38,982 nt of DNA, from assembly GCA_003165235.1 (NCBI GenBank), contig PLSV01000162.1, positions 1 to 38,982 of the forward strand, in the 5' to 3' direction. The DNA comes from Syntrophobacteraceae bacterium. Lineage in GTDB: Bacteria; Desulfobacterota; Syntrophobacteria; Syntrophobacterales; Syntrophobacteraceae. The notes beneath the pieces are model-generated. The model made no database searches, had not been told where the DNA came from, and saw nothing but the letters and a program-made list of their open reading frames with translations. Shown piece by piece: positions 3 through 28,898 of this stretch (positions are counted from its first letter, which is position 1; each line of letters starts with the position of its first letter). The position numbers were made by a program, and so were the translations under genes.

Positions 3-89
3 TTTGTCAGCGCCGGCGTTCTGTTTGCCGTGGGTATGTTCACCCGCGGGAAGCAGGCGGTCCATGCAGAGGAAGGTCCCGGCGTTTAG
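3..89 (+). CDS. C-terminal tail of a small membrane protein (partial, 5' end outside window)
   Basis: The frame is open from the window edge and ends at a TAG at 87-89. It encodes about 28 residues: a hydrophobic stretch (FVSAGVLFAVGMF) followed by a Gly/Lys/Arg turn and a short polar tail. This resembles the layout of the small membrane protein at 4446-4697 (hydrophobic segment, then basic GRRRN, then an acidic tail). If it is a homologue, the window opens at the end of another copy of the envelope-protein module seen at 3634-4697. The fragment is too short for a firm call; it could be a chance open frame. Confidence 0.35.
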   Translation, partial: FVSAGVLFAVGMFTRGKQAVHAEEGPGV

Positions 90-189
90 TAAAGGACGGT
101 GAGCTGCGCCAGGCCTAGGGAGGGACCAGACCATGCTCTTGTCCACGTATCCCTCCCTCTCCGGCACGGTTTTCACTTCTGCTTCGAAA

Positions 190-240
190 AGGCCTGGTGG
201 GCTGCGCTCCGCTTGCGCCTGGCGCCCCACCTACGGTCCT
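190..240. repeat. short GC-rich palindromic intergenic element
   Basis: The arms GGTGGG (196-201) and CCCACC (226-231) face each other around a core alternating GCGCTCCGC and GCGCCTGGCGC, so the stretch can fold into a hairpin. It lies in the 284-bp gap before the first complete gene. The rest of that gap shows no convincing gene; the small open frame through it reads across the palindrome and has no homology I recognise. Confidence 0.4.
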
Positions 241-373
241 TTTCACCGTTTAGGGCAGCCCGCAGGGACATGAAATGCTGCGGTGAACGCTTGCAAAAAG
301 GACTTATTTTACGTATTTAAGCGAATCAGGATAGAGGTTGAATGATTCGGCCAAACAGGGAGAGAGGAATCGA

Positions 374-1357
374 TTGATAAAGCGCAACGTCGTTATAGGA
401 TTTGGATTAGTTCTTCTGGTTATCGGCCTAGCAGGCTTGGCCCTTTTGCAGACAGAGGTGGTTTACCAGCCGGCGTCCAAAGGTCAGACCGGCTTGCTCG
501 ATGTAAACCCGCAAGTCCCCTCTCAGGAAGGTTCCAGGGGTCAGGCAGGCCTCAAGCTAAGGCAGCTTCCTGAGCCTGCGGACAGCATCAAACAGACTCT
601 TGAACCAGGGAGTCAAACCGGGCAGGTCCCGGCGCCTCGATCCGGGGAGGGACCCCGGACGCCCCGCCCCGCCGTCCTCGCCGGGGATGCTTCCGGGACG
701 ATAAATCAACGCTCGGAGGGAAATGGATCTGGCGGGCACGGACTAACGTCCGGAGACCTGGCGACTCAACAAAAGGCGAATCCGGTCCCGCAGGCGGTTA
801 AAGGCGGTGAACAGGCCCAGAAGGCGCCACAGGGGACAGCAGGACCTGGCGCCGGGACGGCCCGAGATCCATCGCCTGCCGTGAGCAAAGCGCCGCGTCG
901 CCCGTCACCCGAAGCGTTACAGCCGGTGGTGATCAGCTTCCATTTCGATCCGGCGGAAAAGCGCGAAATCGATGTGGCGCAGGTGCATTTCGGTGATACT
1001 ATAAGCGTGAGAGTGCGGCGCTTAGGGCAAGCGAACCTGGGGATCCATCTCGCTTTCGCTGTTCCGAATACTTTCGAGACCCGCGTGTGGCGCGAGTGGA
1101 GCACCGGGTCCGGACGGACGTTTGTCGCCCCGATACAGGACAAAGACCGGATCGCGTTGACGGCTGACAGGGATTTTGGAGTCGCCCTGACAAGGAAGCT
1201 CGATTCAAAGGAAGGCGCCGTTTTGAAGCTTGGGGCCGATTACCCTCACGGCCGGGCGGTTCAATCTCCACGCCCCTCGAGGCAGGGCGGCTATGACATC
1301 GAGATGAAAATATATCCAGGCAATCGTTGGAAGATAAAACCCAGGGGTCTTGTGTGA
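374..1357 (+). CDS. membrane-anchored proline/glycine-rich envelope protein, paralogue of 3634-4464; function unknown
   Basis: About 327 residues. An N-terminal transmembrane helix (VVIGFGLVLLVIGLAGLALL) is followed by roughly 160 residues rich in Gly, Pro, Gln and Ala that are probably disordered. A C-terminal domain then runs from PVVISFHFDP to KIYPGNRWKI. The topology is one anchor, a flexible stalk and a folded extracytoplasmic domain. The same anchor and end domain recur in the gene at 3634. I place the start at TTG 374 because it aligns with the GTG start of the paralogue and follows a strong GGAGAGAGGA ribosome-binding site; an in-frame TTG at 338 would add 12 residues without a clear site. 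The next gene starts directly after its stop, so they are probably co-transcribed. I do not recognise the family. Confidence 0.75.
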   Translation: MIKRNVVIGFGLVLLVIGLAGLALLQTEVVYQPASKGQTGLLDVNPQVPSQEGSRGQAGLKLRQLPEPADSIKQTLEPGSQTGQVPAPRSGEGPRTPRPAVLAGDASGTINQRSEGNGSGGHGLTSGDLATQQKANPVPQAVKGGEQAQKAPQGTAGPGAGTARDPSPAVSKAPRRPSPEALQPVVISFHFDPAEKREIDVAQVHFGDTISVRVRRLGQANLGIHLAFAVPNTFETRVWREWSTGSGRTFVAPIQDKDRIALTADRDFGVALTRKLDSKEGAVLKLGADYPHGRAVQSPRPSRQGGYDIEMKIYPGNRWKIKPRGLV

Positions 1358-3358
1358 ATGGGGGTTGAAAAGATGTATTCCGGGGGCTTCAGGTTGAAAA
1401 TTGCGGCAACGGTGACGGCGGTCTCAGTGCTGCTGTGGGCGGCCGGCGCGATCGCCGGAGTTAATGAAGATTTGAGCCAGGCGGCAATGCGTGGCGATAT
1501 GGCTGCGGTCCAGCGACTGATCGGCAGGGGGGCCAAGGTCAATGGCAAAGACAAGTCGGGCTGGACTGCGCTGATGCTCGCATGCCAGAGCGGCAAGATC
1601 GAGGCGGTGAGGGCCCTGATTGACAGGGGGGCCGATGTCAAAGCCGCCAACAGCAGGGGCATAAACCCATTGATGATTGCCTCCGAAAACGGGTACGGCG
1701 ACATCGTCAAAGTTCTGCTGGACAAGGGGGCTGAGGTCAATGCAGCCAACATGGACGACTGGACCGCGTTGTCAGCAGCCTCCTGGGGCGGCTATAAAGA
1801 GGTCGTGGAAGCGCTGATCGCCGGAGGGGCGGATGTTAACGCCAAGAACAGCGGCGACGGCGCTACTGCGTTGACGACTGCCTCCTTCAGGGGCCACGCA
1901 GGGGTCGTGCAGGCGCTGCTCGCCAATGGGGCCAACGTCAATGTGAAAGACAGGGAAGGATCGACCGCCTTGATGCTTGCCTCACAATATGGCCACCCCG
2001 ACGTCGTGCAGGCCCTGTTCGCCGCAAAGGAGATCGAGATCGACGCCAAGGACGACCACGGCGACAGCGCTTTGACGCTTGCCTCCCGGTACGGCCACCT
2101 AGATACGCATGCCTCCCGGTATGGCCACCTGGAGATCGTGCAGGCGCTTCTTGACAAGGGGGCCGATGTCAATTCGAGGGCCAATAACGGCGCAACCCCG
2201 CTGATCTTTGCCTGCATGAAGGGCTATGCCAGGATTGTGGAAGCGCTGCTCGCCGGGGGCTCCGATGTCAATGCGGAGGCCAATGACGGCCAAACCGCGC
2301 TGATGGCGGCCTCCCAGAACAGCAGCCTGGAGGTCGTGCAGGCGCTCCTCGCCAAAGGGGCCAAGGCCTCTGCGGCTAACAGGGACGGCTACACCCCGCT
2401 TATTATTGCCTGCGAGGACGGCCACCTCGATATCGCCGAAGCGCTGATCGAGGGAGGGGCCGAGATCGACGCAAAAGAGAAGGAGGGCTACACCGCGCTC
2501 ATGTTCGCATGCCAGGCCGGTCACCGGGACGTGGTCACGCTGCTGCTCGGCAAGGGGGCAGCGGTCAATGCCAAAAGGAACGACGACCGGACCGCGTTGA
2601 TGGCCGCTTCCATGAATGACGATCGCGATATCGTCGAAGCGCTGCTTGACAAGGGGGCCGAGGTCAATGCCAGGGCGAACGACGGTGAAACCGCGCTGAT
2701 GGTCGCCTCCGGAAACGGCAACCTCCAGGTCGTGCTGGCGCTTCTTGACAGGGGTGCTGAGGTCCCCGCCCGGATGAATGAAGGTTTCACCGCCCTGATG
2801 ATCGCTTCCATGCAGGGCTTCCCGGATGTCGTAAAGGCGCTGTTCGACAGAGGCGCTGAAGTCAATTCCCCCAAGGAGGACGGAGCGACCCCGCTGATGC
2901 TTGCCACCCCGGATGGCCACCGGGCGGCCGTGGAATTGCTGCTCGCCAAGGGGGCGCAAGTAAATGTAAAGGACAATAACGGCATTACCACCCTGATGCT
3001 CGCCTCCCGAAACGGCCGCGCCGAGATAGTTCAGGCGCTGCTGGCGAAAGGGGCCGAGGTCAACGCCAAAGACAAGGACGGCGCAGCAGCGTTGCAGCAT
3101 GCTTCCATGTATGGCCACGTGGAGGTAGTGCGGTTGCTGCTCGCAAAAAAGGCCGACGTCAACGCCATGGACAACAAAGGCCAAACAGCCCTGATGCTTG
3201 CCGCAAAGGACGGCTATACCGGAGTCGTGAAGCTGCTGCTCGCAAAGAAGGCCCTCGCCAATGCGAAAGACAAAAACGGCCGGACCGCCTTGTTGCTTGC
3301 CTCCCAGGGCGGCCACCGCCAAGTTAAAAAACTGCTCCTGAGAGCGGGAGCAAAATAG
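1358..3358 (+). CDS. exported ankyrin-repeat protein (about 19 repeats)
   Basis: 666 residues. An N-terminal signal peptide (basic start, hydrophobic core around AVSVLLWAAGAIA) is followed almost entirely by 33-residue ankyrin repeats of the TALMLAS-GH-VVQALL-KGA-VN type. About 19 can be counted to the C-terminus, with no other domain visible. Ankyrin arrays bind proteins; the partner is unknown. With the signal peptide it should act in the periplasm or outside the cell. ATG 1358 directly follows the upstream stop; ATG 1373, behind GGGGG, is an equally good start and keeps the signal peptide. One repeat carries an extra 10 residues (see 2081-2140). Its position between two paralogous envelope proteins suggests a joint role (inference). 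Confidence 0.9.
   Translation: MGVEKMYSGGFRLKIAATVTAVSVLLWAAGAIAGVNEDLSQAAMRGDMAAVQRLIGRGAKVNGKDKSGWTALMLACQSGKIEAVRALIDRGADVKAANSRGINPLMIASENGYGDIVKVLLDKGAEVNAANMDDWTALSAASWGGYKEVVEALIAGGADVNAKNSGDGATALTTASFRGHAGVVQALLANGANVNVKDREGSTALMLASQYGHPDVVQALFAAKEIEIDAKDDHGDSALTLASRYGHLDTHASRYGHLEIVQALLDKGADVNSRANNGATPLIFACMKGYARIVEALLAGGSDVNAEANDGQTALMAASQNSSLEVVQALLAKGAKASAANRDGYTPLIIACEDGHLDIAEALIEGGAEIDAKEKEGYTALMFACQAGHRDVVTLLLGKGAAVNAKRNDDRTALMAASMNDDRDIVEALLDKGAEVNARANDGETALMVASGNGNLQVVLALLDRGAEVPARMNEGFTALMIASMQGFPDVVKALFDRGAEVNSPKEDGATPLMLATPDGHRAAVELLLAKGAQVNVKDNNGITTLMLASRNGRAEIVQALLAKGAEVNAKDKDGAAALQHASMYGHVEVVRLLLAKKADVNAMDNKGQTALMLAAKDGYTGVVKLLLAKKALANAKDKNGRTALLLASQGGHRQVKKLLLRAGAK
2081..2140 (+). 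repeat. 30-bp in-frame tandem duplication inside the ankyrin array
   Basis: Two adjacent 30-bp units, 2081-2110 and 2111-2140, both begin GCCTCCCGGT and continue with ACGGCCACCT or ATGGCCACCT. They encode ASRYGHLDTH and ASRYGHLEIV. The first 20 bases differ at one position, which points to a recent event. The duplication adds 10 residues to one 33-residue repeat and breaks its register. Confidence 0.85.
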
Positions 3359-3633
3359 AAGAGCGGCAATTCAGGAAGGCGGGAAGCATGGAGCAGCCAT
3401 AGGCGTAACCTGGGTTGCCGGCGCCGGCGATATGGTTTACTGCGATTCCAACATGAACGGTTCGTCACTGGAGCGCGAGGAGGCGGCAGACAGACTTTTG
3501 TTGACCTGTTGATTTTCACTTACCGCTTCCCGCGCCTTTTCTTGTCGACTAAAATAGTCGGGCAACCGTCTAAGCGTTCAAATAAACAAGGATTCAATCT
3601 TTTCGATAACTTTTCCTGGAGGGGAGGACTAAC

Positions 3634-4464
3634 GTGATAAACCGCAGGGCCATTATCGGCATTGGAACGGTTATTCTTGTCATTGGCGTTACAGGTCTGG
3701 GTCTTTTGCAGACCGGGGTGACTCAGCCCACCAAAGAGGAAACACTCGAACCGGCGCCGGCAGCCAGCCAACAAAGCCAGGCCCCGGTGGACCAAACTTC
3801 GCCGGCTGCTGTACCGACCTCTCAACCCGGGGTGGAACCCGGGACCAAAACCAGCCCGGCAGACCTCAAGGAGAGCGCCGGTCAGGGACAGCAACCCCCA
3901 TCCGGAGACGTTGCGGCCGAAAAACCGGTCCCAGTCCCGCAGGTAGGCGAAGGCGAGCGCCGTTATCCGAAGCAGGAGCAAAAGGAGCAAGTTGGGAAAC
4001 ACCGGCCCCCCCTGTTTCAGATGCGGAGCGAGATCTCGCAGGACGATAAGACAACTCGAAAGCCAAAATTCAATGAGAAGCGAAAGCATGCCCACCACAA
4101 ATCAAAATCGGAGCGCTACGCGAGCAAGACGCATCCGGCTCACCGCGCGCAGCCTGTTGTGATCAGGTTCAATTTCGATCCGGGGCGGCATCGCGGACTT
4201 AATGTGGCGCAGGTGCATGCGGGTGATAAAATAAGGGTGAACGTGCGGCGTGTCGGACAGGTGGAGAGCAGGGTTCACTTCACTCTTTCGAGGAATATCA
4301 ACTCACAGCAGGGCGCCGTTTTAAAGCTTGAGACGATGTACTCGTTGTATCACCCGGTCATGTACTCGACTGACCGGGGCTACTATGTAGTCGAGGTGAA
4401 AATCTATCCTGGTAACCGGTGGAACATCATGCCGAGGAGTTATGTATGGCCCGATTCTGTCTGA
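3634..4464 (+). CDS. membrane-anchored proline-rich envelope protein, paralogue of 374-1357; function unknown
   Basis: 276 residues starting at GTG 3634 behind GGAGGGGAGGA, one of the strongest ribosome-binding sites here. An N-terminal helix (IIGIGTVILVIGVTGLGLL) is followed by a Pro/Gln/Ala-rich linker and a Lys/His/Arg-rich stretch (residues about 145-170). The C-terminal domain (PVVIRFNFDP to VKIYPGNRWNI) matches the upstream paralogue. Relative to that copy it lacks about 44 residues in the middle of the end domain, between IHL/VHF and the shared GAVLKL. The 275 bp before it hold no gene I can support, only a short CGACTA/TAGTCG hairpin at 3546-3560. The next small gene overlaps its 3' end, suggesting translational coupling. 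Family not recognised. Confidence 0.75.
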   Translation: MINRRAIIGIGTVILVIGVTGLGLLQTGVTQPTKEETLEPAPAASQQSQAPVDQTSPAAVPTSQPGVEPGTKTSPADLKESAGQGQQPPSGDVAAEKPVPVPQVGEGERRYPKQEQKEQVGKHRPPLFQMRSEISQDDKTTRKPKFNEKRKHAHHKSKSERYASKTHPAHRAQPVVIRFNFDPGRHRGLNVAQVHAGDKIRVNVRRVGQVESRVHFTLSRNINSQQGAVLKLETMYSLYHPVMYSTDRGYYVVEVKIYPGNRWNIMPRSYVWPDSV

Positions 4465-4697
4465 CCCTCTTATTTTCGGCTACCTCTGTGGTTGGCTTAG
4501 GCCTGGTGCTGTATGCAATCATGGCCGGGCGCCGCCGAAATCGCGAGTCCGTCGACGAGGAGAGTGTCGCAGTCGGTTTTTCCGACTCTGCGGGGGAACC
4601 TGGCGGGGTCCTCGATCTCGATATCGGTCATGAAGGTCTAAAGCACAAGGAAAAAGAGCCTTTCGACCCGGATAAGCACAAACCGGAGCCTATCTGA
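4446..4697 (+). CDS. small single-pass membrane protein, function unknown
   Basis: 83 residues from ATG 4446, which follows GAGGAG at 4434-4439 and overlaps the end of the upstream gene by 19 bp. An upstream in-frame ATG at 4419 is less likely because it lies deeper in that gene and lacks such a site. Residues about 4-26 form a hydrophobic helix ending in a basic GRRRNR stop-transfer. The remainder is acidic and charged (EKEPFDPDKHKPEP), presumably cytoplasmic. The fragment at 3-89 may be a homologue, so envelope protein plus small membrane protein could be a repeated two-gene unit. Confidence 0.6.
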   Translation: MARFCLTLLFSATSVVGLGLVLYAIMAGRRRNRESVDEESVAVGFSDSAGEPGGVLDLDIGHEGLKHKEKEPFDPDKHKPEPI

Positions 4698-28048: not shown

Positions 28049-28231
28049 ATGGAGAACCCTCAGACGATCCAATACTGTAGCTTCGAAGGCGAGACCTATT
28101 GGGAAGACTTTGAAATCTGTGCGCTCCTGCGTTGCATGATTTGCAAAAAAGGCCAATGGGAAGACCGGGAAAGCTCCGGGCTCGCCGCTTTGTTAGGGCA
28201 GCCCTTTTGCAGGGGCATGCGCTCTATTTGA
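28049..28231 (+). CDS. possible small cysteine-rich protein
   Basis: 60 residues, starting at ATG 28049 behind AAAGAGAAAG. It contains five cysteines, including CMICKKGQW, and several acidic/aromatic residues (YWEDFEICALL). It overlaps the 3' end of the opposite-strand gene by eight bases and is the only candidate in the 282-bp gap between sixA and the tandem exported proteins. No homologue comes to mind. The spacing of cysteines could suit metal binding, but a chance frame is as likely. Confidence 0.3.
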   Translation: MENPQTIQYCSFEGETYWEDFEICALLRCMICKKGQWEDRESSGLAALLGQPFCRGMRSI

Positions 28232-28538
28232 GAGTCTTTATCGCCTCGACAGCATCCAGGTAAAGCTGGGCTTGAGCGGGAGACATAACCGGATGGCGGC
28301 CAGTCAACTGCAAATCGCCGTTGCTTCTAACTATTCCCAGAAACTGCCCTCCTTTGGGGAGTATGCTGTAGGCCCCTTCATCCACCTTTGCAAGCGTCCC
28401 GACTTCTTGCCCATCTGCATCGAGGATAGCCCATTTGCCATCCTCCTGGGCCTTGAGGGTGACTTCATCAGCCAGGCCAGTAGAGACAAAGCCCATCAAA
28501 AGAAGGGATAGACATATGAGAGCAAGCGCTTTTTTCAT
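28224..28538 (-). CDS. small exported protein, paralogue of 28584-28898; function unknown
   Basis: 104 residues with a clean signal peptide (MKKALALICLSLLLMGFVSTGLA, cut before DE). The mature 80 residues look beta-rich then helical: EDGKWAILDADGQEVGTLAKVDEG, YSILPKGGQFLGIVRSNGDLQL, and a C-terminal helix LYLDAVEAIKTLK. AGGAGG stands before the ATG. It is a tandem copy of the next gene, closely similar over the whole length including the 5' flank. The family is not recognised; it should be periplasmic or secreted. Confidence 0.75.
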   Translation of the reverse strand: MKKALALICLSLLLMGFVSTGLADEVTLKAQEDGKWAILDADGQEVGTLAKVDEGAYSILPKGGQFLGIVRSNGDLQLTGRHPVMSPAQAQLYLDAVEAIKTLK

Positions 28539-28583
28539 CTAAGCCTCCTAGAACTTGGATGAACAGGTAAAGGAGCATCCGCC

Positions 28584-28898
28584 CTATTTGAGCGTCTTTA
28601 TCGCCTCGAGCAAATCCAGGTAAAGCCGGATTTCAGAAGGAGAGACAACCGCATGGCGGACCAGCAACTGCAAGTCGCCGTTGCTTTTAATTACCCCCAT
28701 ATACTGCCCCCCTTTCGGCAATATGCTGTAGCCCCCTTCATCCACCTTTGCAAGCGTTCCGAGTTCCTGTCCCCCGGCATCGATGATAGCCCATTTGCCC
28801 TCCTCCAGAGGCTTGAGGGTGAGTTCACCGGCCAGGCTAACAGAGACAAAGCCCATCAAAAGAAGGGATAGACTTATGAGAGCAAGCGCCTTTTTCAT
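28584..28898 (-). CDS. small exported protein, paralogue of 28224-28538; function unknown
   Basis: 104 residues, exactly the same length as its neighbour, with a near-identical signal peptide and the conserved GTLAKVDEG and YSILPKGGQ stretches. Differences cluster at the signal cleavage site, the first mature residues and the stretch LVRHAVVSPSEIRLYLDLLEAIKTLK. The upstream GGGAGG and the following bases match those of the other copy, so the duplication unit included the ribosome-binding site. The two genes are 45 bp apart and probably form one transcript. The domain appears to be a single small fold without cysteines in the mature part. Confidence 0.75.
   Translation of the reverse strand: MKKALALISLSLLLMGFVSVSLAGELTLKPLEEGKWAIIDAGGQELGTLAKVDEGGYSILPKGGQYMGVIKSNGDLQLLVRHAVVSPSEIRLYLDLLEAIKTLK

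Follow-up and report, generated by a model that had tools for sequence, protein, structure and literature searches.

The window analyzed here, a stretch of 38,982 nucleotides from a Syntrophobacteraceae bacterium, starts at base 1 of its contig, and the sequence 5' of its first complete gene is therefore cut by the contig end. The source genome is 7.07 Mb in 424 contigs (97.8% complete, 8.9% contamination), and the relatives with named records are metagenome-assembled genomes. At the start of the window lie two genes for paralogous stalked membrane proteins, a gene for an exported ankyrin-repeat protein between them, and a gene for a small membrane protein that overlaps the second stalk gene (Table 1). 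The best start of the first stalk gene is a TTG preceded by GGAGAGAGGAA; the TTG at 338 is less good. A sequence-only reading of the locus had proposed small membrane proteins after the second stalk gene and probably before the first. The former is present; before the first stalk gene there is only a weakly hydrophobic frame of 28 residues, truncated by the contig end and lacking the tail conserved in the small-protein family. Convergent genes follow downstream, named from their translations as an EamA-type transporter, serC, a leucyl aminopeptidase and a type II secretion-like cluster. Promoter and terminator scans of the locus gave chance-level results only. Elsewhere in the window, positions 28224-28898 hold a tandem pair of near-alike exported proteins of 104 residues.

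Table 1. Features at the 5' end of the window, with positions, strand and evidence.
Feature	Position	Strand	Evidence
Open frame truncated by contig start, possibly 3' end of another small membrane gene	3..89	+	ORF, tail comparison, hydrophobicity
Stalk1: N-terminal membrane helix, ~156-aa Pro/Gly/Gln-rich spacer, long end domain	374..1357	+	ORF, RBS, family alignment, profile E 4.9e-58, topology
Stalk1 end domain, long type, predicted jelly-roll	923..1354	+	AlphaFold2, fold comparison
Ankyrin-repeat protein, exported, 18-19 repeats	1358..3358 (alternative start 1373)	+	Pfam, repeat pattern, TGAATG junction
Stalk2: membrane helix, ~145-aa spacer, short end domain	3634..4464	+	ORF, alignment, tree, topology
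Stalk2 end domain, short type	4153..4461	+	AlphaFold2, clade support
AGGAG, likely ribosome-binding site of small gene, within stalk2 PRS codons	4435..4439	+	Sequence, conservation in relatives, codon counts
Small one-helix membrane protein, stalk partner, 19-base overlap with stalk2	4446..4697	+	Profile A4, junctions

Both stalk proteins consist of one N-terminal membrane helix, a low-complexity spacer of Pro, Gly, Ser, Ala and Gln, and an end domain that starts at PVVI. They share 29% identity overall (E ~2e-26) and 49% where their end domains align, a likeness that, judged from the alignment, is not due to chance, and the proposal of two real paralogues with a membrane anchor, a Pro-rich stalk and a related end domain thus holds. 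That the end domain closes in YPGNRW was borne out only as to the motif, which is present in both copies; KIKPRGLV and NIMPRSYVWPDSV follow it, so that it is not the protein terminus. The membrane helix is strongly hydrophobic in both stalks, positive charge lies N-terminal to it in 13/13 family members, and almost nothing of the stalk is left for a cytoplasmic part. The spacer measures 112-156 residues in all members. Its composition differs among them, some spacers being Pro/Gly/Gln-rich and others highly charged; that its length is kept and its sequence is not would suit a spacer that sets a distance.

The end domains are of two kinds, a long type of 144 residues (stalk1) and a short type of about 98-103 residues (stalk2) that lacks about 45 central residues. 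Short types form a single clade that includes stalk2 (support 100/97), and the most distant members (those of G012, G015 and G234) have long heads, so the short type is probably derived. Neither kind matched anything in Pfam, NCBIfam or PDB sequences, and the end-domain profile reached only chance level against PDB sequences (best E 0.25). The view that this domain lies outside recognized families is accordingly upheld by the profile search, in which it was absent from every family library searched. Against libraries of defense and phage families, the stalks and the small protein gave nothing more than weak low-complexity matches, and the ankyrin protein matched generic ankyrin families only.

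AlphaFold2 predictions of the long head from 10 sequences gave a beta sandwich (mean pLDDT 79, pTM 0.78); for the short head the best model had a mean pLDDT of 77.5 and the remaining four 48-58. The GOLD domain of p24 proteins (5azx, 5azw) was the top-ranked structural match to both heads. For the long head this was p24delta1 (Z 8.0 over 92 residues, rmsd 2.7), with LecA (Z 7.1, 93 residues, rmsd 2.8), accessory domains of M60-type metallopeptidases and picornavirus capsids within about one Z unit; for the short head no match rose above background, GOLD itself reaching Z 6.0 over 71 residues. The GOLD domain differs from the heads in sequence (10-13% identity), its Z score lies at the background for a common fold, and the Pfam matches found at E 1 for 12 members include no GOLD model. 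In p24 proteins the domain is N-terminal and the helix C-terminal, the opposite of the order in the stalks. LecA (PA-IL) and other jelly-roll lectin-like domains have a beta-sandwich arrangement like that of the modeled long head but no sequence similarity to the heads. Picornavirus jelly-roll capsids, the top Foldseek matches (TM ~0.4), were set aside as sharing a common fold rather than kinship. The models thus suggest that the end domain is a jelly-roll, often a binding fold, and, with fold matches at the common-fold background, say no more than that.

The conserved unit is a stalk gene followed by a small-protein gene that overlaps or abuts it at the stop/start junction. The small-protein profile found exactly one gene in each of the 9 stalk-bearing genomes of the genus (the window genome included), always at a stalk stop codon; none in the genus lies apart from a stalk. 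Weaker matches came from G012, where the gene again follows the stalk, and from G013 (E 0.008), a genome without a stalk, where the match is probably due to chance; in G012, G015 and G234 a membrane ORF lies directly after the stalk. In the source genome it is stalk2 whose stop is overlapped by a gene of the small family, and at stalk1 the ankyrin gene occupies that slot. The small protein has one helix and a conserved tail of about 50 residues (..GHEGL.H..KE.FDP..H.PE.I), which by charge is more likely cytoplasmic than not; the charge pattern is weak in several members, the net charge after the helix being 0 to -3 in G002, G003, G005, G008, G010 and G012. CcmD was considered as an identity for this protein and rejected, as 1/10 members matched TIGR04391, at 17.4 bits against a cut-off of 24. 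The small protein is likewise tiny and single-helixed but differs from CcmD in its conserved 50-residue tail and in having no heme exporter genes adjacent.

Most stalk genes end in ATGA or GTGA, in which the stop and the start of the small gene overlap; a start displaced by a few bases is seen in G010, stalk2 and G012. An AGGAG lies about six bases upstream of the small-gene start, inside the codons of a near-invariant PRS tail of the stalk. In counts that take the related sequences as they stand and ignore kinship, the Arg codon of this motif is AGG in 12/12 stalks of the Syntrophobacteraceae family, whereas AGG makes up 22% of Arg codons in the rest of these genes; AGT or AGC follows it in 11/12, compared with 32% AGY among the other Ser codons. 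This codon preference suggests that the tail motif probably serves in part as the ribosome-binding site of the gene that follows. Stalk1 is the sole family stalk with GGT after AGG, that is PRG instead of PRS, and the distant G234 stalk uses CGG as its Arg codon.

The end-domain profile detected members in 11/39 genomes of the order, which belong to a single family and three genera; the same 11 were found among 56 genomes of the class, and a 395-genome sample of the phylum added one distant member, G234 (E 1.6e-24). Neither IMG/VR contigs nor PLSDB plasmids yielded a member of the family. Each of eight relatives in the genus and of the two other genera carries one stalk gene, none with an adjacent ankyrin gene, while G001 and G006 gave no stalk match, the PF03601 gene of G006 sitting at a contig end, where a stalk gene may have been cut off. 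The locus of G005 is syntenic with the window (secretin-like gene, aminopeptidase, serC, EamA) and has one long stalk and a small gene, and no ankyrin gene. The ankyrin gene between two stalks is, on these comparisons, particular to the source genome among the genomes compared. An undescribed family of stalked envelope proteins with a linked small membrane protein, as the sequence-only reading had it, is confirmed in that no library matched it and the pair is kept across relatives. As far as sequence comparison goes, the stalk family is real, and the partner conserved with it is the small membrane protein rather than the ankyrin array.

The genes adjoining the pair vary between genomes, and context therefore points to no pathway. 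Short-type pairs at L022:9507-13177, L023:10083-13393 and L024:9371-12848 are followed by a gene read as a secreted kumamolisin-like peptidase with a pro-domain. Upstream of the short-type stalk in G004, G007 and G009 lies a gene for a PF03601-type membrane protein (tested with Pfam in G007 only); this gene was not found in the source genome, so the origin of stalk2 is untraceable by synteny. Convergent to the pair in G012 (L030:6997-7551) and G015 (L031:8301-8936) are genes for similar single-helix proteins of an unassigned family, of which the former had no match in the source genome or other sampled genomes.

The reading we favor, with a confidence only somewhat better than even, is a two-gene envelope unit in which a stalk and a translationally coupled small protein form an inner-membrane complex with a periplasmic binding head and a cytoplasmic tail. 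We infer that the N-terminal helix would anchor the stalk N-in in the inner membrane, the spacer holding the jelly-roll head in the periplasm, where it would most likely bind a ligand or some other part of the envelope. The partner gene, starting within or at the stalk stop, would be made by coupled translation and would add, through its single helix, a cytoplasmic tail. The two proteins may then associate in a fixed ratio, linking or reporting between a periplasmic ligand and the cytoplasm; since the stalk has almost no cytoplasmic part and the partner has a conserved tail, a joint complex would be the simplest reading. The source genome holds two stalks, one with a long and one with a short head, and in it the partner slot of the former is taken by an exported ankyrin gene.

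That gene encodes 19 stretches matching PF00023 (18 repeats by pattern, one irregular) behind a hydrophobic N-terminus ending in AIA that reads like a signal peptide, in agreement with the proposed exported protein of about 19 ankyrin repeats between the stalks. In its irregular repeat (window 2075-2133), 30 bases are duplicated in tandem (copies at 2075 and 2105, 90% identical), which adds about 10 residues. Ankyrin proteins are reported to be required for catalase in Pseudomonas and Campylobacter (PMC7567364). AnkB of Pseudomonas aeruginosa, a periplasmic ankyrin protein, is described as an exported ankyrin array like the one encoded here (PMC7567364 and its references); the present protein differs in having 18-19 repeats and no recognized catalase neighbor.

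The ankyrin gene may well be an unrelated passenger behind stalk1 that has replaced the small partner and acts elsewhere, for example on heme proteins as AnkB-like proteins do, a possibility we hold to be real but rather less than even. Ankyrin paralogues are dispersed in the source genome, and an exported one, C32, shares the N-terminal pattern (AIAEVNEDFFEAAKRGD vs AIAGVNEDLSQAAMRGD) and stands alone among unrelated genes (L081:3820-4584); moreover, stalk1 alone has lost the PRS codons that hold the ribosome site of the small gene, and the catalase requirement in other bacteria would offer such a protein a role. The tight TGAATG junction, in which the ankyrin start directly abuts the stalk1 stop, instead suggests co-translation with stalk1, and no catalase gene was recognized beside the ankyrin gene or among the translated genes of the window, whose upstream side is cut by the contig end. 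Such a passenger would be compatible with the two-gene explanation of the stalk pair.

The junction and the signal-peptide-like start also indicate that the ankyrin protein is probably co-expressed with stalk1 and reaches the same compartment as the heads, as would be expected if all four genes formed one envelope system in which the array, a lineage-specific recruit to the operon, binds the heads in the periplasm. We regard this as unlikely: no ankyrin gene lies beside any stalk of the relatives, the best matches elsewhere are arrays that share 36-57% identity with part of the protein, and the nearest exported paralogue of the source genome is the solitary C32. The neighborhood survey found the gene order not kept, with no relative's stalk having an ankyrin neighbor or a second stalk, and so did not sustain the ankyrin protein as part of a module; that the array binds the heads, or works with the stalks at all, is a guess.

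Broader still, the pair could represent a new class of two-subunit trans-envelope device. Its periplasmic jelly-roll head would sit on a spacer whose length is kept, and the gene slot of its coupled second subunit could take different effectors: a small protein with a cytoplasmic tail, an exported ankyrin array or, next to a DNA-transfer ATPase, a coiled-coil protein. We offer this as speculation, less probable again than a four-gene system. The last of these effectors refers to G234, where L072:7415-11941 encodes in order a distant stalk with a highly charged spacer, a 265-residue membrane protein, a TraD/TrwB-like coupling ATPase (PF10412, 2.2e-11) and Replic_Relax, on a plasmid-like contig that also has ParA/ParB-like genes and a Rep3 initiator. 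This single case would fit an anchoring role for the pair. It also invites the reading that the two proteins form the membrane portion of a motor whose ATPase the chromosomal copies have lost or never had; we consider this quite improbable, as it is one case, neither PLSDB nor the rest of the sampled phylum holds a match to the second protein of G234, and no coupling ATPase was recognized near other stalk loci.

The sequence-only reading had likened the topology to that of energy- or signal-transducing stalk proteins. A TonB- or TolA-like energy-transducing role is the least credible of all: the general layout is alike (N-in helix; a spacer that is Pro-rich in TonB and Ala/Lys/Glu-rich in TolA, Pro-rich or charged here; C-terminal periplasmic domain), but the stalks differ in their modeled jelly-roll head and overlapping small partner gene, Pfam gave no TonB or TolA domain, whether the two stalks were searched at E 10 or 12 end domains at E 1, the 19-residue membrane helix contains His in 0/13 members, and no ExbB/ExbD or TolQ/TolR was recognized on reading the stalk neighborhoods, though such partners may be unlinked. 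TIGR02794 reached E 0.13 on G015, within its charged spacer; G234 has HH just after the helix; and the VIA-align lists for the heads, which may miss such folds, contained none like TonB or TolA, the short-head model being the weaker of the two.

The Syntrophobacteraceae thus possess an uncharacterized protein pair defined by a clear genetic signature, in which a C-terminal codon motif closes one protein and starts the next. The eye-catching ankyrin neighbor lies outside this conserved unit, and the natural replacement of the second gene behind stalk1 makes ideas about the second slot testable.
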